Virus record (IMG/VR): IMGVR_UViG_3300025137_000018
Coordinates: 62,001-126,000 of that record
Reading direction: 5' to 3' (one strand)
DNA from: a virus
DNA length: 64,000 bases
Made by a program: the position numbers and the translations under genes
Notes under the pieces: generated by a model
The model's database searches: none
Told to the model about the DNA's origin: nothing
The model's input: the letters and a program-made list of their open reading frames with translations, nothing else
Shown here: positions 20,556-43,098 of the stretch, one piece after another
Numbering within the stretch: position 1 is the stretch's first letter
Layout of the letters: each line of letters begins with the position of its first letter

Positions 20556-20873
20556 ATGATAGATATAACCGAGATAGCACATGAAAAACTCGTCGAAAAG
20601 ACGCGCAAAGCTGGTAACAATATTATCAGAATTGGGCTACTTCCTGCTGGTTGCAACGGTTGGAAATACCAGTTTGTATTTGTTACTGAGAGCGATCCAG
20701 ACGACCACATAATAGATTATGGCGATTATATCTTAGTTGTTGAAACAGGCCAGCTTCATAACTTTATGAATATGACCCTTGATTATCAAACCGAGGGTCT
20801 AAATTCAGAATTTAAATTCTTAAATCCAAACGAGGTCGCGTCCTGCGGCTGTGGACAATCAATATCGTTCTAA
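20556..20873 (+). CDS. A-type iron-sulfur carrier (IscA/HesB family)
   Basis: A 105-aa protein with the three conserved cysteines of A-type carriers: Cys33 in PAGCNGWKYQF and Cys97/Cys99 in the C-terminal CGCGQS. It should accept or deliver Fe-S clusters. With IscU encoded 5 kb downstream, the phage carries both a scaffold and a carrier. Similar hesB-like genes are known in marine T4-like phages. Confidence 0.9.
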   Translation: MIDITEIAHEKLVEKTRKAGNNIIRIGLLPAGCNGWKYQFVFVTESDPDDHIIDYGDYILVVETGQLHNFMNMTLDYQTEGLNSEFKFLNPNEVASCGCGQSISF

Positions 20874-21201: not shown

Positions 21202-21468
21202 ATGGACATAGCTGGATTAATTATAGAATTCGGATTTGAAACAATTGCTTTAGTAGGTCTCGGATATTTTGTTTTTTATGTATGGCAATTTGTATCAAAC
21301 GACTTGGAACCAAAGATTGAAGAAATGCATTTCGGTTTAATACGTTTAATAGACCAAGTTAGAATGCTTGATCAAGATATGATTAGATTACAAGAAAAGG
21401 TTAAAGTTGTACTAGAGTATAGAGAAAGACAGAAAATATTAGATATGGAAAACAAAAATGAAGATTAG
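21202..21468 (+). CDS. small membrane protein with coiled coil (holin-like, second copy)
   Basis: 88 aa with the same layout as its neighbour: one N-terminal membrane helix (FGFETIALVGLGYFVFYVW) and a charged coiled coil (DQVRMLDQDMIRLQEKVKVV). The two may work together as a heteromer. Its last codons overlap the CsgF start by 11 nt. Confidence 0.6.
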   Translation: MDIAGLIIEFGFETIALVGLGYFVFYVWQFVSNDLEPKIEEMHFGLIRLIDQVRMLDQDMIRLQEKVKVVLEYRERQKILDMENKNED

Positions 21469-21940
21469 AAATATAGCATTCATAGGAATGGTAATATCAT
21501 TTTCAGTATATGCTGATGAAATTAAATTTGGATTTAAAAATCCATCGTTCAGTGGATCTGGAACAGGAGCACATTATTTAACGATTGAGAACCAAGAACA
21601 TTCTCGTAAAAAGGCGATTGAAGATGCTTTAGAAGCTGCAAGAAAAGCTGCAGAAAGAGAAGCTGAAAACTCTACAATGGCCAAGTTTATTAGAAACTTG
21701 GAGAGTAGAATATACTCTCAGATGTCAAAACAATTAGTTGAATCTATGTTTAGTAACGATGGGTCAGTAAGATTTGGTTCATTTACATTAGAAGGTAATG
21801 TAGTAACATACGAAGTACTTATTAACGAAGACGGTACAGAATATATTAAAATGACCATTGTAGATTCAGATGGAACTACAACCGTTATTGAAATACCAGT
21901 AGGAACTGGCAACTTTGGGCAAGATCCAGATGTTGGTTAA
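21458..21940 (+). CDS. csgF: curli assembly factor CsgF-like
   Basis: 160 aa with a signal peptide (about residues 1-19, ending VYAD). The mature N-terminus IKFGFKNPSFSGSGTGAHYL matches the CsgF peptide (FQFRNPNFGG in E. coli), the part that plugs into the CsgG pore. The second half has the domain pattern KFIRNLESRIYSQMSKQLVE and a beta-rich tail. An Ala/Glu-rich helical insert separates the two. In bacteria CsgF sits at the outer side of the CsgG channel and helps nucleate curlin. The gene overlaps csgG by 11 nt. Confidence 0.9.
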   Translation: MKIRNIAFIGMVISFSVYADEIKFGFKNPSFSGSGTGAHYLTIENQEHSRKKAIEDALEAARKAAEREAENSTMAKFIRNLESRIYSQMSKQLVESMFSNDGSVRFGSFTLEGNVVTYEVLINEDGTEYIKMTIVDSDGTTTVIEIPVGTGNFGQDPDVG

Positions 21941-22940
21941 GTATATTTTAGTATTGTTAATGCTTAGCGGATGCGCATCAGTTCCGCAGTGGAGTCCAAA
22001 TCCTCAAGATTGTAATGACCTATCAGGAAAGTACGCTCAAGGTTGGAAAACAGATGTTGATAATGATGGTATTATAAATGATACTGCCTGGGATGTAGCT
22101 AAACAAGGATATATGGGTTATAAAAAGGCAATGGCAAGAAAGTATATTTGCGTTGATGAACCCACTGCAGTTAGATTACCTGCATATGTAGATTTATTAA
22201 ATCTACCTCCAGCAAAGGATATGCCGGTTGTTGCAGTATACGCATTTAAAGATCTAACAGGACAAAGAAAATCAGTAGATAATATAGCATCGTTCTCTAC
22301 TGCAGTTACCCAAGGCGGTACTGAATTATTAATAGATGCTCTCAAAACTGCAGGTGGCGGAACCTGGTTTAGAGTAGTAGAAAGACAAGGGATTGATAAT
22401 CTTGTAAGGGAAAGACAAATTGTAAGATCGACCCGACAAGATGTTGCTAAAGCCGAAGGGACTGAAGCACGAGGAGTTGGACCTCTCTTATTCGCTGGAA
22501 TGATTATAGAGGGAGGTATTATTGGTTATGATGCTAATACGGAAACAGGTGGACGCGGCGCACGAACACTTGGTATAGGTTTTAGTAAAATGTATCGTAA
22601 AGACGTTGTTACAGTTTCTGTGAGAGCAGTATCTGTATTAACGGGTGAAGTTTTGTTAAACGTCCAAAGTAAGAAATCGGTATTATCTTACGGAAGTGGT
22701 GGTGACTTGTTTAGATTTATTGAACAGGGAACACAACTTATAGAATATGAGGACGGTGTAGGTAATAATGAGTCAGTAACATATGCAGTTAGAGCTGCTA
22801 TTGAAGCTGCAGTTTTGGAATTAATCTACCAGGGTCATGACCGTAAATTCTGGGATATAACCGCGGGTCATCGTCATCCACATCAATTTGATGGCAAAAA
22901 CGATAAACACGCAATTAACGAGGAAAACGAAAATGAATAA
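21930..22940 (+). CDS. csgG: curli secretion pore lipoprotein CsgG-like
   Basis: 336 aa, with lipobox LSGC placing the lipidated cysteine at residue 15. From about residue 80 it follows CsgG: VYAFKDLTGQRK, FSTAVTQGGTELLIDALK, RVVERQGIDNLVRERQIV, EGGIIGYDANTETGGRGARTLGIG, VSVRAVSVLTGEVLLNV, KSVLSYGSGGDLFRFIE. This covers the barrel hairpins and the periplasmic domain, so an outer-membrane nonamer is expected. Two departures: about 60 extra residues after the lipid cysteine, containing an acidic DVDNDG motif, and a changed constriction loop in which the Phe is kept while the Tyr and Asn positions differ. CsgE is not found nearby. Confidence 0.93.
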   Translation: MLVKYILVLLMLSGCASVPQWSPNPQDCNDLSGKYAQGWKTDVDNDGIINDTAWDVAKQGYMGYKKAMARKYICVDEPTAVRLPAYVDLLNLPPAKDMPVVAVYAFKDLTGQRKSVDNIASFSTAVTQGGTELLIDALKTAGGGTWFRVVERQGIDNLVRERQIVRSTRQDVAKAEGTEARGVGPLLFAGMIIEGGIIGYDANTETGGRGARTLGIGFSKMYRKDVVTVSVRAVSVLTGEVLLNVQSKKSVLSYGSGGDLFRFIEQGTQLIEYEDGVGNNESVTYAVRAAIEAAVLELIYQGHDRKFWDITAGHRHPHQFDGKNDKHAINEENENE

Positions 22941-23673
22941 ACTTTTAAGTATAGTTGTCTTAGGACTATTATCAACATCGTTTGTTTATGCTGCAGCTAC
23001 TGATGATAACGAAATTAGAATAGATCAAACTGGTGACACTTTAATCTTATATATCGATCAAGTAGGTTTTGGTAACAAAATAGGACTCACCGATTACTCT
23101 GGAAGTCCTGCAGATATGACAATAATAGGTTCAAGCTTAACATTTAATCTTGACCAGATTGGTAATCAGAATTTAATCTACGGCCCGCTGAAGCTAGACT
23201 CATCTTCTTTAACATTCAATTTAACTGGAGATTCAAATAAGGTAGATTGGGATATAGGTACAACAGGTAGTTCTGATACTACTAATTATGCCTTTGCTGT
23301 TACTGGAGATAGTAATACATTTGATATAGACCAAGGTAAAGTTGGAGCAAGTGCTGAAAGATTAGATGCTGATTTAATATTAATTGGTAACTCAAACGTA
23401 TTTGATTTAGATTTTGAAACCGATGATGTAACTTGGAATTTTGAAATTACTGGAGACAGTAATAATGTTAATACATTACAGAAAGATGGTTCACAAAAAA
23501 TAACGCTTGAATTAGTAGGTGATAGTGCAGATATTGATATTAATCAATTATCAGGTACATGTGCTGCTAGTGGCGGAGGTTGTGCAACTCCTAATGCAAT
23601 TATAAATTTAGATATTACATCAGACAATGCTAAGATTCAGATCAACCAGAAAGATTCTGGTAGCGACTCTTAG
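22933..23673 (+). CDS. curlin-repeat protein (CsgA/CsgB-like), first copy
   Basis: ATG 22933 follows AGGAAAACGAAA. A Sec signal (MNKLLSIVVLGLLSTSFVYA) leads into DDNEIRIDQTGDTLILYIDQ, then repeated short units such as TGDSNKVDWD, TGDSNTFDID, IGNSNVFDLD, TGDSNNVNTL and VGDSADIDINQ. The units follow the curlin pattern in which Gln/Asn ladders form amyloid strands, although the spacing is looser than in E. coli CsgA. The end has a Cys pair (TCAASGGGC) and a final IQINQKDSG. It immediately follows csgG, its probable export channel. Confidence 0.85.
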   Translation: MNKLLSIVVLGLLSTSFVYAAATDDNEIRIDQTGDTLILYIDQVGFGNKIGLTDYSGSPADMTIIGSSLTFNLDQIGNQNLIYGPLKLDSSSLTFNLTGDSNKVDWDIGTTGSSDTTNYAFAVTGDSNTFDIDQGKVGASAERLDADLILIGNSNVFDLDFETDDVTWNFEITGDSNNVNTLQKDGSQKITLELVGDSADIDINQLSGTCAASGGGCATPNAIINLDITSDNAKIQINQKDSGSDS

Positions 23674-24736
23674 TTTACTATTCATCACTGGAATCGCCTA
23701 TGCTGATTCCATTGGTGACATAGTAGAGTCAACTGGCATCGGCCAGATTGTTCGTAATAATGAACAAATAGTAGTAGCTAATGCATTAGCAATAGAACTA
23801 AATGATGAAGCAAAAACTGGTAACGGAAGAATGCTTATTGAGTTTTTAGATAAGGCTCAATTATCCTTAAAGGAACATTCTGAAGTACTAATAGACGAAA
23901 TATATTATGACCCTGATCCTTCACTCTCAAAAATGAGTATGAAGTTTACAATGGGAACGGCAAGATTCGCATCTGGAAGATTAGGATTAGTGAATAAAGC
24001 CAATATTGATATCAAGACTCCTACGGCCTCAATTGCCGTACGGGGAACTGATTTTACAACAACAGTAGATGAGTTAGGTAGAAGCCTAATCATATTACTA
24101 CCAGATGAGAATGGTGACCCATCTGGTGAGATAGTAGTTTCTAATGAAGGCGGAGTAGTTACATTAAACGAAGCCTATGCCGCAACAATGGTATCATCAT
24201 TAGATTCATCACCAACACAGTCAATCGTAGTGAATGGTATTACACCAGCATTAATTGACAATATGTTTATTGTATCACCTCCACCGGCAGTTGCTGAAAG
24301 AATACAAGAAGAAATGGCCGATGAAGCGAACGAAGACCAAGGGCTATTAGATATAGATTTTTTAGAGTTCACTGAGTTAGAAGAAGATGAGTTAGAAGAA
24401 GATGAACTTGAAGATTTTACCGAACTGGATATTGATGAATTAAGTGTCGATTTTTTAGTAGATGTATTAAACGCCATAGACAATTCAGATGTTCTAAATA
24501 CAATAGGCGAATTTAATATCAAAGGTGCTAGTAAAGGATTTAATATTAAATCCCAATGGAATGTTTTTTTACAAGATGGCGATTTAGTATTGTATAGAAG
24601 CGTTAATGGTGTTATAAGTGTTAAAATAGGTGCAGCTGGTAATTTTGCATTAGAAGCTATAACTCCAACTTGGGACGGACTAATAACTGGAAACGAGGGT
24701 GATGATATCCTCATTTATATAAATCAGGTGAATTAA
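23627..24736 (+). CDS. FecR-domain periplasmic protein
   Basis: The 369-aa product starts inside the curlin gene (47-nt overlap). A signal peptide (VATLSLLFITGIAYA) precedes a FecR domain at about residues 28-180 (GQIVRNNEQIVV, RMLIEFLDKAQLSLKEHSE, IDIKTPTASIAVRGTDFTTTV), an acidic linker (LEEDELEEDELEDF) near 250 and a C-terminal domain ending NEGDDILIYINQVN. FecR proteins transmit periplasmic signals. The cyclase downstream has a CHASE2 sensor, and FecR and CHASE2 domains are commonly associated in bacteria, so this may be its ligand or partner. It sits between two curlin-like genes. Confidence 0.85.
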   Translation: MLRFRSTRKILVATLSLLFITGIAYADSIGDIVESTGIGQIVRNNEQIVVANALAIELNDEAKTGNGRMLIEFLDKAQLSLKEHSEVLIDEIYYDPDPSLSKMSMKFTMGTARFASGRLGLVNKANIDIKTPTASIAVRGTDFTTTVDELGRSLIILLPDENGDPSGEIVVSNEGGVVTLNEAYAATMVSSLDSSPTQSIVVNGITPALIDNMFIVSPPPAVAERIQEEMADEANEDQGLLDIDFLEFTELEEDELEEDELEDFTELDIDELSVDFLVDVLNAIDNSDVLNTIGEFNIKGASKGFNIKSQWNVFLQDGDLVLYRSVNGVISVKIGAAGNFALEAITPTWDGLITGNEGDDILIYINQVN

Positions 24737-24737
24737 T

Positions 24738-25511
24738 ATGTTAGATAAATTAGAAGAATATTCAATGAAAGCTTTAATATGGGCAAGTGTTTTATTTTGG
24801 CCTATTATTATATTGTCACTACTTTTAGCACCACTGTTTGCAAATGCTGATGATAATATTATTACTATGGAACAAACAGGTGATACCTTTCAATTAGGTG
24901 TTGATCAATTTGGTTATAGTAATGAAATTAAAATGCTAGATGGTAATTCATATATTACAGCCACAAGTTTAGATATGTATTTAGTCCAGGTTAATACAAG
25001 TACTGGTGCACTTCCTAATAAAATTACATTCGATGAAATAAGTGGAACAGGTAATCAAATGAAATTAGCTCAAGGTGTTGCATGGAATACTCTTGATTCT
25101 GACACTGATTTAACTTGGTCGCATGATAGTTATGAAGGGGGCGGCCATGAAATTGATATTATTATGTACGGTGACAACAATAAATTAGCAGTTCAACAAA
25201 CGAACCAAACTGGTGCAGCCGACGGACATAACTTTGATCTACATTTAGCTGGTGATAATAATGAAGTTAAAATAAAACAACAAAGTAATGGTTCTAAGAC
25301 TATTGACCTAACAATTTACAATGATAATAACGATGTGTTTATTCGTCAATATGGTCAAGGGTCATCACACAATGCTAATATTACGTTAGATGGACTATAT
25401 AACACTGATTTAATTTTAAAACAATTAGGTACATCAGGTTCCAATGCATACACACTTAACCAAAACTGTTTTACAGTTGGTGGTTGCTCAGTGTCAGTAA
25501 CTCAGGAGTAA
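24738..25511 (+). CDS. curlin-repeat protein (CsgA/CsgB-like), second copy
   Basis: 257 aa with an N-terminal cytoplasmic tail, a hydrophobic segment and a likely signal cleavage near FANADD at about residue 36. The mature part opens DNIITMEQTGDTFQLGVDQ, parallel to the first copy, and carries units such as YGDNNKLAVQQ, AGDNNEVKIKQQ and YNDNNDVFIRQ. These match the curlin consensus better than the first copy. It also ends in a Cys pair (NCFTVGGC). One copy may nucleate and the other polymerise, as CsgB and CsgA do; that split is inference. Confidence 0.87.
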   Translation: MLDKLEEYSMKALIWASVLFWPIIILSLLLAPLFANADDNIITMEQTGDTFQLGVDQFGYSNEIKMLDGNSYITATSLDMYLVQVNTSTGALPNKITFDEISGTGNQMKLAQGVAWNTLDSDTDLTWSHDSYEGGGHEIDIIMYGDNNKLAVQQTNQTGAADGHNFDLHLAGDNNEVKIKQQSNGSKTIDLTIYNDNNDVFIRQYGQGSSHNANITLDGLYNTDLILKQLGTSGSNAYTLNQNCFTVGGCSVSVTQE

Positions 25512-25513
25512 TT

Positions 25514-25999
25514 ATGGCATATTCAGACGAAGTAGTAAAGAGATTTGAAGCGGTTCTAGCCAACCCTAAAAAACATTCTGTTGGCTCATTAGATAGAAAG
25601 GATCCAAAAGTAGCAACCGGTCTTGCAGGAGCTCCTGCATGTGGTGACGTAATGCAATTACAGCTATTACTCGATGATGATGAAAAGATTATCGATGTTA
25701 AATTTAAAACATATGGTTGTGGGTCAGCAATTGCATCTTCATCATTGTTTGTTGATATGATGATGGGTCTAACTATCGAAGAAGCAAAACTAATTAAAGA
25801 TAAGGACATTGCAGAGGTCTTACAACTTCCACCAATTAAATTACATTGTAGCGTATTAGCAGAAGATGCTATTAAACAAGCTATGGTAGATTACGAAACA
25901 AAAAACGACAAAGACTACACACATCCAATTTTAGACCAACCTAAATCTATGATAGGTCATAATAGACCACCACTCGAAAGAGAGGACTTCATAGAATGA
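25514..25999 (+). CDS. iscU: iron-sulfur cluster scaffold IscU
   Basis: 161 aa from ATG 25514 (AGGAG upstream). All key residues are present: Cys43 and Asp45 in GAPACGD, Cys69 in TYGCGSAIASSS, His111 and Cys112 in LHCS, and the LPPIK chaperone-recognition loop at 105-109. The core reads like bacterial IscU at very high similarity. A 30-residue C-terminal extension (HPILDQPKSMIGHNRPPLERED) is not typical. It would build [2Fe-2S] clusters on host or phage proteins. It is close to the IscA-type gene at 20556. Confidence 0.95.
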   Translation: MAYSDEVVKRFEAVLANPKKHSVGSLDRKDPKVATGLAGAPACGDVMQLQLLLDDDEKIIDVKFKTYGCGSAIASSSLFVDMMMGLTIEEAKLIKDKDIAEVLQLPPIKLHCSVLAEDAIKQAMVDYETKNDKDYTHPILDQPKSMIGHNRPPLEREDFIE

Positions 26000-26082: not shown

Positions 26083-26354
26083 CAATAGAATGCCCAGAAG
26101 AATATTATGAGTGTCTTACCGAAGAAGAATATGATGAAATATTAGAACTCTTCGAAGAGAATGAAATATCATTTCCAGATTCAATTCAACCAGAAAGCGT
26201 AAGCGATGCACAAGCAGTAGCTGATTTTACGTGGCAAGTGCTATTCTTATCTCCATGGGAATTAGCTTATATAGCTTTACCAATGAGCGTATTAGCCTTT
26301 TATGGATTAACTATATACGCTATTTTTAAATGGGTCCAGAGAAAATTTAGCTAA
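26079..26354 (+). CDS. small membrane protein upstream of the cyclase
   Basis: 91 aa: an acidic N-terminal half (ECPEEYYECLTEEEYDEILELFEENE) and one membrane helix near residues 60-83 (ELAYIALPMSVLAFYGLTIY) with a basic end. It overlaps the cyclase start by 1 nt. It may be a partner of the cyclase or of the curli proteins; no family recognised. Confidence 0.6.
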   Translation: MTIECPEEYYECLTEEEYDEILELFEENEISFPDSIQPESVSDAQAVADFTWQVLFLSPWELAYIALPMSVLAFYGLTIYAIFKWVQRKFS

Positions 26355-28192
26355 TGAAACTAATAACCAGTATTTGGACAACCATAATACTGTCACTTAT
26401 TCTTATAGGTATAAGAATAATTGATCCTAGCTTTGTTCAGCAGTTAAGATTAAACACTTTTGATCAATATATTTCTACCATTCCAGAAAAGAAATCAGAT
26501 ATAGTTCTACTGAATATAGGAGAAGAATCCTTAGGTTTATTAGGACAATATCCATTCCCTCGTCAAACTTACGCACAATTAATATCTGATTTAAGGAATG
26601 CTAATGCAGGATTAATTGGATTTACTTTAATGTTTCCAGAGGCTGATAGATTCGGTGGAGACGAAGTGTTTGCTTCTTGGGTAAATGATAATGGTATTAT
26701 CTTATCTCAGGATGCAGATGAAAATGGAAGAAGTACTAAAGCACCCTATGTTGGTTCAGTAACATTTGGTACAGGTGATCCATTAGATTGGGCTATAAGA
26801 TATAAAGGATTAGTTACAAATATAACTGAAATAGAACAAGGTGCATGGGGTACTGGATTAATAAATGGCATGCCAGAAGTCGATGGATTAGTGCGTAGAA
26901 TACCTTTGTTAAGTCAAATTAATAAGGAACTATACCCATCGTTTGCACTAGAACTTCTTAGAGTATCTAATGAACGATTATCTTATACTGTAAAAGTTAA
27001 TGATGTAGGTATAGAAGAAATAATTATTAGGCCATTTAGAATTACTACAGATCCTAATGGATCATTCTGGATTAACCATAATTATACCTTTACGGAAATA
27101 GAGGTCGGGACCAAGCTACCTGATCTTCAGGGCCAAACAGTTCTAATTGGACTGACAGCGAAGGGATTAGCGGCCCAGATTCCAACTCCTGCTGGTCTTC
27201 AATCAGCTCATCATATTCAGGCTGCGTCCATCCAGTCAATAATGGATGAAATATCGATATCTCGTCCTCTCTGGGCGGATTTAATTGAAATCCTGGTAAT
27301 GCTAATTGCCTCGGGACTCTTAATCTATATTGTGTATTACCGTTCGATTCGTTCATCAGCCATAATCTTCGTTGGGATTGCGATCTCGACCGGAGCTTCT
27401 GTTGCATACGTCTGGAATGAATGGGGAATTCTCCTTGATATTAGTTACTTTTCACTATTATATATAATAGTATTCTCATCAGCAAGTTTTAATAATTTTT
27501 ATAAACAATATATGTTAAGGCAACAGATAAAGAAACAGTTTGAGACCTATTTAGATCCTAAACAAGTATACCTATTACAGAAAAATCCAGGTTTATTAAA
27601 GCTTGGTGGAGAGCGAAAACAGATGTCGTTTCTTTTTATGGATATTGTAGGCTTTACTCCTATATCAGAACACTATAAGAACAATGATGATCCAGAAGGA
27701 TTAGTAGAATTAATTAATGAATTTCTTAATGCAATGACAAATATTATTCTTGCAAATGGTGGTACTATTGACAAATATATGGGGGACTGTATAATGGCAT
27801 TTTGGAATGCTCCATTACCCTGTGAAAATCACGCTGAAATGGCAGTTAAATCAGCGATAGAAATAGAGACTAAAACAAATGAACTTAAAGAGTTATATTC
27901 TGCCAGGGGTTTGCCTGACATTAATGTTGGTACTGGCGTTAACACCGGTGATTGTATTGTTGGTAACATGGGTAGTGAATCCAGATTTGACTACTCGGTT
28001 ATTGGAGATGCAGTCAATCTTGCCGCGAGGCTTGAGGCTACCGCTGCAAGGCATGAATATATAGAATATAAAACCATCATTTCTGAGGATACTTACAGCA
28101 GGTTACCCTCTAGCCTAAAATGCACAAAAATTGGCCAAATAACTGTAAAAGGTAAAAAAGACCTTATAACCATATATTCTCCTTCGTTATAA
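26354..28192 (+). CDS. membrane adenylate cyclase with CHASE2 sensor (class III)
   Basis: 612 aa: an N-terminal membrane helix (about 6-24), a periplasmic CHASE2 domain (about 25-305), three membrane helices (about 307-378) and a class III cyclase domain (about 423-600). Catalytic residues are complete: metal Asp430 in FLFMDIVGFT, adenine-binding Lys474 in IDKYMGD, Asp478, Asp546 in FDYSVIGD, and transition-state Asn555 and Arg559 in NLAARLE. The Lys/Asp pair predicts ATP over GTP. Signals sensed by CHASE2 are unknown; the FecR protein upstream is a plausible partner. A higher-GC segment covers residues 249-358. The gene closes the operon. Confidence 0.93.
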   Translation: MKLITSIWTTIILSLILIGIRIIDPSFVQQLRLNTFDQYISTIPEKKSDIVLLNIGEESLGLLGQYPFPRQTYAQLISDLRNANAGLIGFTLMFPEADRFGGDEVFASWVNDNGIILSQDADENGRSTKAPYVGSVTFGTGDPLDWAIRYKGLVTNITEIEQGAWGTGLINGMPEVDGLVRRIPLLSQINKELYPSFALELLRVSNERLSYTVKVNDVGIEEIIIRPFRITTDPNGSFWINHNYTFTEIEVGTKLPDLQGQTVLIGLTAKGLAAQIPTPAGLQSAHHIQAASIQSIMDEISISRPLWADLIEILVMLIASGLLIYIVYYRSIRSSAIIFVGIAISTGASVAYVWNEWGILLDISYFSLLYIIVFSSASFNNFYKQYMLRQQIKKQFETYLDPKQVYLLQKNPGLLKLGGERKQMSFLFMDIVGFTPISEHYKNNDDPEGLVELINEFLNAMTNIILANGGTIDKYMGDCIMAFWNAPLPCENHAEMAVKSAIEIETKTNELKELYSARGLPDINVGTGVNTGDCIVGNMGSESRFDYSVIGDAVNLAARLEATAARHEYIEYKTIISEDTYSRLPSSLKCTKIGQITVKGKKDLITIYSPSL

Positions 28193-40348: not shown

Positions 40349-41645
40349 TCAACATTTCATACAATCAGGTACAAGTAAGAGTATTATACCCTCTTCATAT
40401 CAGTTAAAGACTGCAACAATTGTATCAAATAGTGGTAAGGAGTTCAATATAATCGATCTGGTCGATTCATTTACTGTCCTAGAATCACTCTATCAATCGT
40501 CTATTACGGTCAATCTAGTGATTGCAGATGGGGTTTCATTCCTTGAAGCTGCACGAATAACAGGTAGCGAAGAGATTATATTAGGTGTAACGCATACTTC
40601 TTTAAACGATAATAAGAAAAAACAATTCAATTTCTCAGTGTTTATCTCTGAGATCTATAATCATTCCAAGCCTAAGCCAGGGTTACAGGTATATGAGATA
40701 GAAGCATTCTCTGAACACATGTACATTTCACATACAAAACGAATGGTAAAACCCTTTGGAGGAACACTTGCATCATCAATCAAAGAGTTGATACGAGACG
40801 CAGGAGTGTCAAGAACTCATATTGTAGAGACAGATTCAAAGAGTACTGTTGAAGGTATATACCCTAGATTACATCCATTAGAGGCGATATCCTGGTTAAT
40901 GCGTAATACATTTGATAAAGGAACACCATATTTCTTTTATGAGACCGCAAAAGATGGTGTCAGTCTACGCTCATATGCATCTTTGTTAAATGACGAAGTG
41001 TACGATACCTATAATCATTTTCCATACTTTAAATCACAGATAGGAGATGAAGAGTATTATGAAGAAGCACGTAAAAAGATACAAAAGCTTTCATCTGATT
41101 TAGATCTATCGCAACTTGCAACACTGGCTTCCGGCGGTTATTCCTCTACATTAACAGATATTGATATTGCAACAAAGACAGTAACAACTTCTGTGATGAA
41201 AGCAGACGATAATGCAACACGATTAAATGAACATCCGGTCTACGCCGATGCATCACAATTTGGATCTGTATTATTAAAAGAAGCCACTGATTCACATCAC
41301 CATTATGTATCAACAAATAGTAAAGCATTTGATTCAGATAACTATTCAAATGCATCATCACCGACCGTAATGAATCAACAGGCCACGCTACAAACTTTAG
41401 ATGCATTAACGCAACGGATTACACTGGCTGGCGATCTAAATCTTACTGTTGGTAGTATCATATACCTTGAGATTCCTCGTACACAAGATCCAAGTGAAAT
41501 AAAAGGTAACATAAAGATGGATAAAATGCTAAGCGGTAGACATATAGTAACACAAATAGAACATTCTTTTGACGAAGAGTATAACATGACCGTATATTGC
41601 AATAAAGATTCTTATATAATGGACATGAATGGAGAGACAGAGTAA
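40341..41645 (+). CDS. 27: baseplate hub protein gp27-like
   Basis: 434 aa. The ELVDSF/TVLESLYQSSITVNLVIADGV-type opening, the barrel-forming middle with YEIEAFSEHMYISHTKRM, and the late TQIEHSFDEEYNMTVYCNKDS match hub proteins of the gp27/gpD type that hold the spike. The 1-nt overlap with gene 5 supports hub assembly. Assignment rests on motif and order. Confidence 0.8.
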   Translation: MSNQHFIQSGTSKSIIPSSYQLKTATIVSNSGKEFNIIDLVDSFTVLESLYQSSITVNLVIADGVSFLEAARITGSEEIILGVTHTSLNDNKKKQFNFSVFISEIYNHSKPKPGLQVYEIEAFSEHMYISHTKRMVKPFGGTLASSIKELIRDAGVSRTHIVETDSKSTVEGIYPRLHPLEAISWLMRNTFDKGTPYFFYETAKDGVSLRSYASLLNDEVYDTYNHFPYFKSQIGDEEYYEEARKKIQKLSSDLDLSQLATLASGGYSSTLTDIDIATKTVTTSVMKADDNATRLNEHPVYADASQFGSVLLKEATDSHHHYVSTNSKAFDSDNYSNASSPTVMNQQATLQTLDALTQRITLAGDLNLTVGSIIYLEIPRTQDPSEIKGNIKMDKMLSGRHIVTQIEHSFDEEYNMTVYCNKDSYIMDMNGETE

Positions 41646-42367
41646 TGATTAGCCGTAAAGAAGATCAATTCATATCACCAGATAACAACTTTGTATGGTT
41701 TACAGGTATCGTAGAAGACGTAAGTGATCCATTATACATGAATAGAGTACGTGTTAGGTGCATTGGTTACCATACAACTGACAAGGGAGTATTACCTACA
41801 GATAAACTACCATGGGCTACAGTGATGATGGGTAATGACGTTGCAAGTGTTGCAGGGGTCGGAAAAAACCATAGTTGCCGGGTTGATTCATGGATCCTAG
41901 GCTTCTTCCGAGATGGCAAAAGCGCACAGGATCCAATCATATTAGGGACCATAACAAGTAGCACAGGAGGCGTATCCGATATTCCACCAGAGGCGCATGT
42001 CAATGGTAACACAAATCATGTACATAGAACAGAGGCAGGTCATCTAATAGAGTATGATAACACTCCTAATAACAATCGGATTAATATAACGCACTCTAGC
42101 GGGACAACTATTAATATTAATAACGCAGGAGATGTGGAGATTAATAGTGTATCTGATGTTGTTAGTATAGATGGCAACACTACAATCACTGGTACACTGC
42201 ATGTAACAGAGGCGACTACTTGTGCAGAAGAGATTACAGCGAAGAGTACAGGCGAAGAGAGTGTTACACTAACAGGACATACACATACAGAAGTGCCAGG
42301 TACAGGTGGGGCAAGTTCTCCTACACCAGCAACGGCACAGACTAAGAAGCCAACGGCAGGTACATAA
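41645..42367 (+). CDS. 5: central spike/baseplate hub protein gp5-like without lysozyme domain
   Basis: 240 aa. An OB domain (VWFTGIVEDVSDPLYMNRVRVRCIGYH, PWATVMM) is followed by a HLIEYDNTPNNNRINITHSSGTT strand region and a beta-helix of short repeats (INNAGDVEINSVSDVVSIDG). It ends with TGHTHTEVPGTGG, an HxH pair like that holding iron in other spike tips. T4 gp5 has a lysozyme domain after the OB fold, absent here, so the peptidoglycan must be opened by another protein. Terminates before the non-coding region. Confidence 0.87.
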   Translation: MISRKEDQFISPDNNFVWFTGIVEDVSDPLYMNRVRVRCIGYHTTDKGVLPTDKLPWATVMMGNDVASVAGVGKNHSCRVDSWILGFFRDGKSAQDPIILGTITSSTGGVSDIPPEAHVNGNTNHVHRTEAGHLIEYDNTPNNNRINITHSSGTTININNAGDVEINSVSDVVSIDGNTTITGTLHVTEATTCAEEITAKSTGEESVTLTGHTHTEVPGTGGASSPTPATAQTKKPTAGT

Positions 42368-42402
42368 TGAGTACTACCTCTGCCCCCCATAGAACCTATT
42401 AT

Positions 42403-42431
42403 ATTATACCATACTTTCGAGCAAATGTACA
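42403..42431 (-). promoter_or_regulatory. minus-strand early-type promoter
   Basis: On the minus strand: ACACTGTACATTT (TGTACA at 42426-42431), 17 nt, TATGG-TATAAT (42408 down to 42403). It is a full match to the plus-strand family but points against genes 5 to 48. Confidence 0.75.
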
Positions 42432-42632
42432 GTGTTTCCGGAGATTATATGAGGCATCTGTGTACGCATATTGGCCATTATATACGAGGGGAAATGCATG
42501 CAGCGGTGGCGGGGGGCTAGTACATGCATGTTCTTCGATATGAATCTGAGTTTTGCTTCGATATGCATTATATAAAAAAAATTTCTCGAGAAAAATTTCT
42601 TCCTAGAACCTTGTCAACTATAACACAAAGGA

Positions 42633-42641
42633 TATAAATAG
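42633..42641 (+). promoter_or_regulatory. late promoter (leaderless) of gene 25
   Basis: TATAAATAG, 4 nt, ATG 42646. Predicted transcription start exactly on the A of ATG. Confidence 0.75.
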
Positions 42642-42645
42642 ATAC

Positions 42646-43098
42646 ATGGGAACAGTTAATAGACACAATGCAGGATTCGTTATATCAGATAGTGAGACCT
42701 CTTCACGTACCTCTCGTAAGAAAGGATGGGCTGACCTTGATCTATCTCTCTATATAAATGATAAGACAAAAGATCTTTATATACCACAGGATGAACAGGC
42801 AATACGTAATGCAGTAAAGAACTTATTGTTATCTAACTTTTATGATAGGCCTTTTGCTCCAACACTTGGTGCGAATATGAGAGGGTTGTTATTTGAACCT
42901 GCTGATACCATAACAAAGATAGCATTAAAAGAGAATATAGAGAATGTATTGCGTATACATGAGGGAAGGATTGAATTATATAATGTGTTTATTGATGATC
43001 TGGCAGATGATAACGCATATAGAATAACCGCACACTATAATATAAAGGAGTACGATATAGAACAAGAAGTTGAATTAGTACTTCGAAGACTAAGGTAA
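42646..43098 (+). CDS. 25: baseplate wedge protein gp25
   Basis: 150 aa; T4 gp25/lysozyme-like wedge family. DLDLSLYINDKTKDLYIPQDEQAIRNAV in two consecutive parts, followed by ERPFAP-type YDRPFAPTLGANMRGLLFEP and a final EQEVELVLRRLR, are the family signature. It joins sheath and wedge. First gene of the wedge operon, from a leaderless late promoter. Confidence 0.95.
   Translation: MGTVNRHNAGFVISDSETSSRTSRKKGWADLDLSLYINDKTKDLYIPQDEQAIRNAVKNLLLSNFYDRPFAPTLGANMRGLLFEPADTITKIALKENIENVLRIHEGRIELYNVFIDDLADDNAYRITAHYNIKEYDIEQEVELVLRRLR

Follow-up and report, generated by a model that had tools for sequence, protein, structure and literature searches.

The window analysed here comprises 64,000 nucleotides, bases 62001-126000 of a virus record of 126,379 bp (G000). 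The longest real non-coding gap that we saw among its late genes spans positions 42368-42645 (278 bp) and lies between two plus-strand open reading frames, a gp5-like hub gene on the left (41645-42367) and a gp25-like wedge gene on the right (42646-43098). Both the coordinates and the rank of this gap had been given in a first-pass annotation of the DNA, and they proved correct when checked against the sequence and the flanking ORFs. A coding function of the gap was rejected, as ORFs running across it are not kept as such where the left side changes in relatives, and relatives do not preserve the sole long antisense ORF (42040-42390) either. No near DNA match to the gap was found in named phages, and no terminator was found for its predicted leftward transcript. 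Elsewhere in the window, the plus strand encodes a 612-aa protein that combines CHASE2 with adenylate/guanylate cyclase catalytic domains (26354..28192), a putative phage-encoded cyclic-nucleotide cyclase; a curli-like cluster (21458..25511) that includes a homologue of CsgG and a protein with a FecR domain, as likewise reported for Melnitz and HTVC008M; and the iron-sulphur cluster biogenesis proteins Fe-S_biosyn and NifU_N (20556..20873 and 25484..25999, respectively). The features of the gap, together with a second site outside the window, are the following.

42403..42431, minus strand: early-type sigma-70 promoter, exact consensus match, −35 TGTACA at 42431-42426 and −10 TATAAT at 42408-42403
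42371..42402, minus strand: G-rich initial transcribed region ATAATAGGTTCTATGGGGGGCAGAGGTAGTACT, matching the gp55-gap family described below
42375..42431, minus strand: stretch matched by sequence model R1 of that family (40.9 bits, E 4.5e-11, model positions 3-59 of 62)
42371..42590, minus strand: constrained core, comprising the promoter, the G-rich transcript start and ~160 bp upstream of the promoter; few differences among relatives, left boundary kept where the neighbour changes
42493..42530, no strand: GC-rich patch between two ATGCAT words, 67% GC in 42500-42529, kept in all relatives covering the patch
42533..42565, no strand: two CTTCGATATG copies, 23 bp apart, the second degenerate in five relatives
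42563..42602, no strand: AT-rich tract with the palindrome TTTCTCGAGAAA (42582-42593), upstream, not downstream, of the minus-strand promoter
42633..42640, plus strand: late promoter TATAAATA of the gp25-like gene, a neighbour outside the element, kept directly before gp25 in distant relatives that have no gap
G000:C1:23351-23410 (= L015:3351-3410), outside the window, minus strand: second orphan counter-directional early promoter with a G-rich start, 90/90 identical in a relative

The early consensus of this phage reads TGTACA...ATGGTATAAT, and the minus-strand promoter of the gap, with its 17-bp spacer and ATGG ahead of the −10 TATAAT, is identical to it. Exact early promoters number 17 genome-wide; 15 are on the plus strand and two on the minus strand, one in the gap and the other at G000:C1:23409. 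A related phage of 136.8 kb (G001) has 16 exact matches, of which the two counter-directional ones occupy the same two sites. Neither of them serves a gene, the DNA downstream being antisense to plus-strand genes, and the exact match to the consensus confirms the earlier description of a perfect minus-strand early-type promoter without an early gene to serve. The 15 rightward promoters have short AT-rich (AU-rich) leaders, in most cases with an ATG no more than 50 nt from the start, and contain 3-9 G in the first 40 nt, compared to 13 in the gap copy (with a run of 6) and 14 in the copy near gp55 (with a run of 3).

The smaller motifs that had been pointed out in the gap are real, namely the three ATGCAT words (42494, 42524 and 42563), the two CTTCGATATG copies (42533 and 42556, one of which reads CTTCGACATG in some relatives) and the 12-bp palindrome. 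Of the dinucleotide shuffles of the gap, however, 9.8% have a palindromic hexamer at 3 copies, 11.8% contain a 12-bp palindrome and 4.8% a 10-bp direct repeat, and with each at 5-12% we rejected these motifs as evidence. Two features of the gap, taken together, do go beyond chance: the orphan promoter and the constraint on the 220-bp core.

Compared to six relatives, the core of ~220 bp shows only 2-4 differences (1-2%), whereas four-fold degenerate sites in the flanking gp5, gp25 and gp6 genes are 10-13% diverged in the same comparison (Fisher p 7e-7 to 3e-6 per relative). The final ~42 bp ahead of gp25 diverge at the neutral rate. Between G000 and G001 the gp55 gap is identical at 90/90 positions and the gap in the window at 273/278, against an aligned-genome mean of 91.5%, which places both among the best-kept non-coding gaps genome-wide. 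Two further non-coding gaps, G000:C1:49561-49953 and 77115-77240, are also highly conserved (98.4-98.5% identical to G001 in the aligned parts).

The left side of the element has a different history. In five relatives the DNA there is unrelated, with no change in the element from AGTACTACC on; a relative contig that was examined in full carries genes for calx-beta-like, subtilase and PAAR proteins on this side. In IMGVR_UViG_3300017776_001048 (L027:1829-5688), the stretch between gp5 and the element encodes a gp5 C-terminus that differs, together with calx-beta-like, subtilase (Peptidase_S8) and PAAR proteins; the window lineage is without these calx-beta-like, subtilase and PAAR genes of the group-b relatives. 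In more distant relatives, whose gp25 is ~50% identical, there is neither gap nor element at this place, and the gene upstream runs right up to gp25's late promoter TATAAATA. An alignment of the gap across relatives, which the first-pass annotation had proposed as a check, thus gives a divided answer: core and promoter are kept in close relatives, and the element is absent here in distant ones. Because the left neighbour is swapped and distant relatives do without the gap, gp25 does not need the element, nor is the element tied to gp5. The ~160-bp block upstream of the promoter has homologues only within the same lineage. The swapped left neighbourhood also means that insertions happen here, and the promoter might be a relic of a lost early gene or a mobile cassette; we regard this as very improbable, given that the 220 bp are kept at 1-2% divergence against 10-13% at neutral sites and that the same element is conserved family-wide at gp55.

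The second copy in G000 sits between the gene that follows uvsW and a 67-aa ORF preceding gp55, in the gene order uvsY-uvsW-131 aa-[element]-67 aa-gp55-47-46. We surveyed 80 gp55 loci from other environmental phages (71-99% identity). A leftward promoter of the form T(T/G)(T/G)ACA-17-TATAAT is present in 79 of the 80, followed by a G-rich start with a consensus near AATATAGTCAACCGGGGAGGTTAGAGGTATAC, and in 13 larger contigs the full-length element match is on the strand opposite the ordinary early promoters. One relative has two tandem counter-directional elements before gp55 (L191/L194; G011:C1:333-391 and 112-170). Cultured Kyanoviridae show the same synteny, with a near-consensus minus-strand host promoter in the 34-185-bp space before gp55. 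The carriers are C48C1, HTVC008M, Mosig, S-PM2, Syn1, ACG-2014b, ACG-2014f, S-P4, P-SSM3, P-RSM4, P-TIM68, S-SM2, S-CAM1 and S-RIM8, among them about ten cyanophages of many genera; the promoter in Mosig was read by eye, the automatic scan having missed it owing to the short annotated space, and that in Melnitz is weaker. The cultured total is 14-15. In S-PM2, Syn1, ACG-2014b, P-TIM68 and S-RIM8 no exact TTGACA-N17-TANAAT in that direction other than this promoter occurs in 170-197 kb; the same holds for S-CAM1, the record of which is reversed.

Model R1 was trained on 56 gp55-gap copies, with the window element outside the training set. Its best match in G000 is the window element (40.9 bits), above the phage's own gp55-gap copy (38.5 bits), and ordinary early promoters score no higher than 23.8 bits, in the promoter half. 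BLAST likewise aligns the window element with gp55-gap copies of other phages over 57 bp at 79-81% (81% to L136, E 3.5e-8). The window element therefore has the minus-strand promoter and the G-rich start along model R1 that define the family, but not the location between uvsW and gp55. Judged by sequence, a widespread element with its primary copy between uvsW and gp55 is present a second time in the window, perhaps acquired from another phage.

What might such an element do? At both sites the predicted transcripts run against late-type plus-strand genes, and an early leftward transcript could silence the genes in its path, uvsW in the case of the main copy and the operon of the baseplate hub in that of the window copy. 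T4 UvsW destroys origin R-loops (PMC3016281), so silencing uvsW early would make sense. On the other hand, five relatives have exchanged the DNA left of the window element for the PAAR/subtilase module in place of gp5, and the element stays; antisense control of gp5 is therefore not what is conserved, and the earlier suggestion that an antisense RNA limits the late hub genes is weakened accordingly. Silencing also leaves the G-rich start and the conserved block upstream of the promoter unexplained, and we think it unlikely as the function of the element. Regulation of the rightward neighbour, gp55 or gp25, is a further option, in which the promoter would set the timing of that gene through divergent-promoter interference or local supercoiling. 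The back-to-back arrangement of the leftward promoter with the gp55 promoter would suit this; the late gene beside the window copy, however, has a TATAAATA box of its own, and gp25 of distant relatives does without the gap, which makes such a role improbable.

Could the promoter instead yield a short trans-acting or structured small RNA? The conserved part is the initial transcribed region, many family members allow a small 5' inverted repeat to be drawn, and free-energy z-scores average −0.93 in the environmental set. An arm-swap test was, however, not significant (WC pairing was reached in 132/1000 swaps and GU pairing in 343/1000), the mean z of the cultured phages is −0.16, RNAalifold pairs no positions, and neither an Rfam match above the gathering score nor a terminator was found. 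We consider a small RNA quite unlikely. The gap folds in an ordinary manner (z of 0.16 and −0.71), and an apparent covarying 5' hairpin was dropped since arm swaps and shuffles did not favour it; no RNA structure is claimed.

The position and direction of the window element recall a replication origin of T4. According to the T4 record, oriE lies in gene 5 and has the (-) strand direction, its primer RNA being complementary to gene 5. For oriF the place is between uvsY and gene 25; oriE has an early-mode promoter and does not need a middle promoter (PMC3016281). The window element is likewise near the 3' end of the gp5 gene and on the minus strand, with a predicted RNA antisense to gp5 and an early-mode promoter. 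It differs from oriE in being located after gene 5 and not inside it, and in its G-rich start, which T4 oriE does not have. An evenly spaced cluster of 12-nt iterons of the oriE type is absent from the gap, which contains only the two 10-mers, one of them degenerate in relatives, and an A+T-rich unwinding element (DUE) is absent downstream of the promoter, where 42200-42400 is 43-63% AT and the AT-rich tract lies upstream; oriF and oriG have such an element on the downstream side. No RepEA homologue was found, the best tblastn hit of RepEA having an E of 0.1 at an unrelated site, and there is no RepEA-like ORF. To T4 oriF and oriG, the main copy of the family is similar in its uvsY-uvsW neighbourhood, in the promoter-driven RNA as the proposed primer, and in the T4-type replisome and UvsW of the phage; it differs in that its promoter is of the sigma-70 early type and not a MotA middle promoter, and in that its transcript would be antisense to uvsW/uvsY. 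Another antisense transcript in a T4-like marine phage, as is predicted here, is the cfrI RNA of cyanophage S-PM2 (PMC2984593), but cfrI lies at psbA, a different place, with no shared sequence known.

We propose that the element is a duplicated, conserved transcript-priming (R-loop) origin, and put the probability of this reading, with its predicted transcript, R-loop and priming, at roughly 0.4. The host-sigma-70 promoter, aimed against the genes, would produce an early leftward transcript, the G/purine-rich start of which would stay annealed to its template just downstream of the start site as an R-loop. Trimming of the annealed RNA by RNase H would leave a primer, from which the phage's T4-type replisome could carry out leftward leading-strand synthesis, as at T4 origins. 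The phage has genes for a T4-type polymerase, clamp, clamp loader, SSB, UvsY, a UvsW-like helicase and an exonuclease of phrog_107, which we take to be the family of T4 RNase H. For prokaryotic RNA polymerases, G-clusters near the RNA 5' end favour R-loops (PMC4245955); a G-rich start is only permissive for a persistent RNA-DNA hybrid. Transcript priming is favoured by the combination of the T4-type replisome and UvsY/UvsW genes, the likeness to T4 origins and the work on G-clusters, and the position of the wider gp55-gap family beside UvsY/UvsW, as near T4 oriF, strengthens the origin idea. Because the window copy looks like a duplicate limited to close relatives, it may be a secondary or recent origin. 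The conserved 160-bp block upstream of the promoter is not accounted for by an origin.

Nucleotide skew separates the two copies. Cumulative GC3 skew, taken at third codon positions, falls close to its minimum at the gp55-gap copy in six genomes (percentiles 4-22%), which an origin should show, and comes close to its maximum at the window copy (94-95th percentile), where an old bidirectional origin would call for the opposite sign; the signal is small, the cyanophages are mutually related and gene timing may cause the skew. Cumulative total GC skew gave no useful signal, as gene direction dominates. The GC3 skew fits an old origin at gp55 and not an old bidirectional one at gp5-gp25, and is compatible with a recent or weak origin there. 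The first-pass proposal of an oriE-like origin thus stands in part: position, direction and promoter type match oriE, but iterons, RepEA and a downstream AT-rich element are absent and the GC3 skew has the wrong sign. A broader version, that the marine T4-like phages (Kyanoviridae and relatives) share one transcript-primed origin at uvsW-gp55, which was duplicated in the window lineage to the oriE position after gene 5, is possible but doubtful.

Replication start sites of ocean T4-like phages appear to be unmapped, although a single theta origin predicted for Syn9 is cited in a review (PMC2984593). Our literature search found no report of this promoter; the Syn9 genome and transcriptome papers were outside the search, so priority is not established. 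The element bears on whether origins besides oriF and oriG use R-loops, which has been listed as an open question (PMC3016281). A transcript-primed T4-type origin is known as a kind, and the form, place and breadth seen here would be new. Being single, conserved and fixed in position, the orphan promoter of cultured cyanophages offers a precise, testable candidate site for the start of replication.
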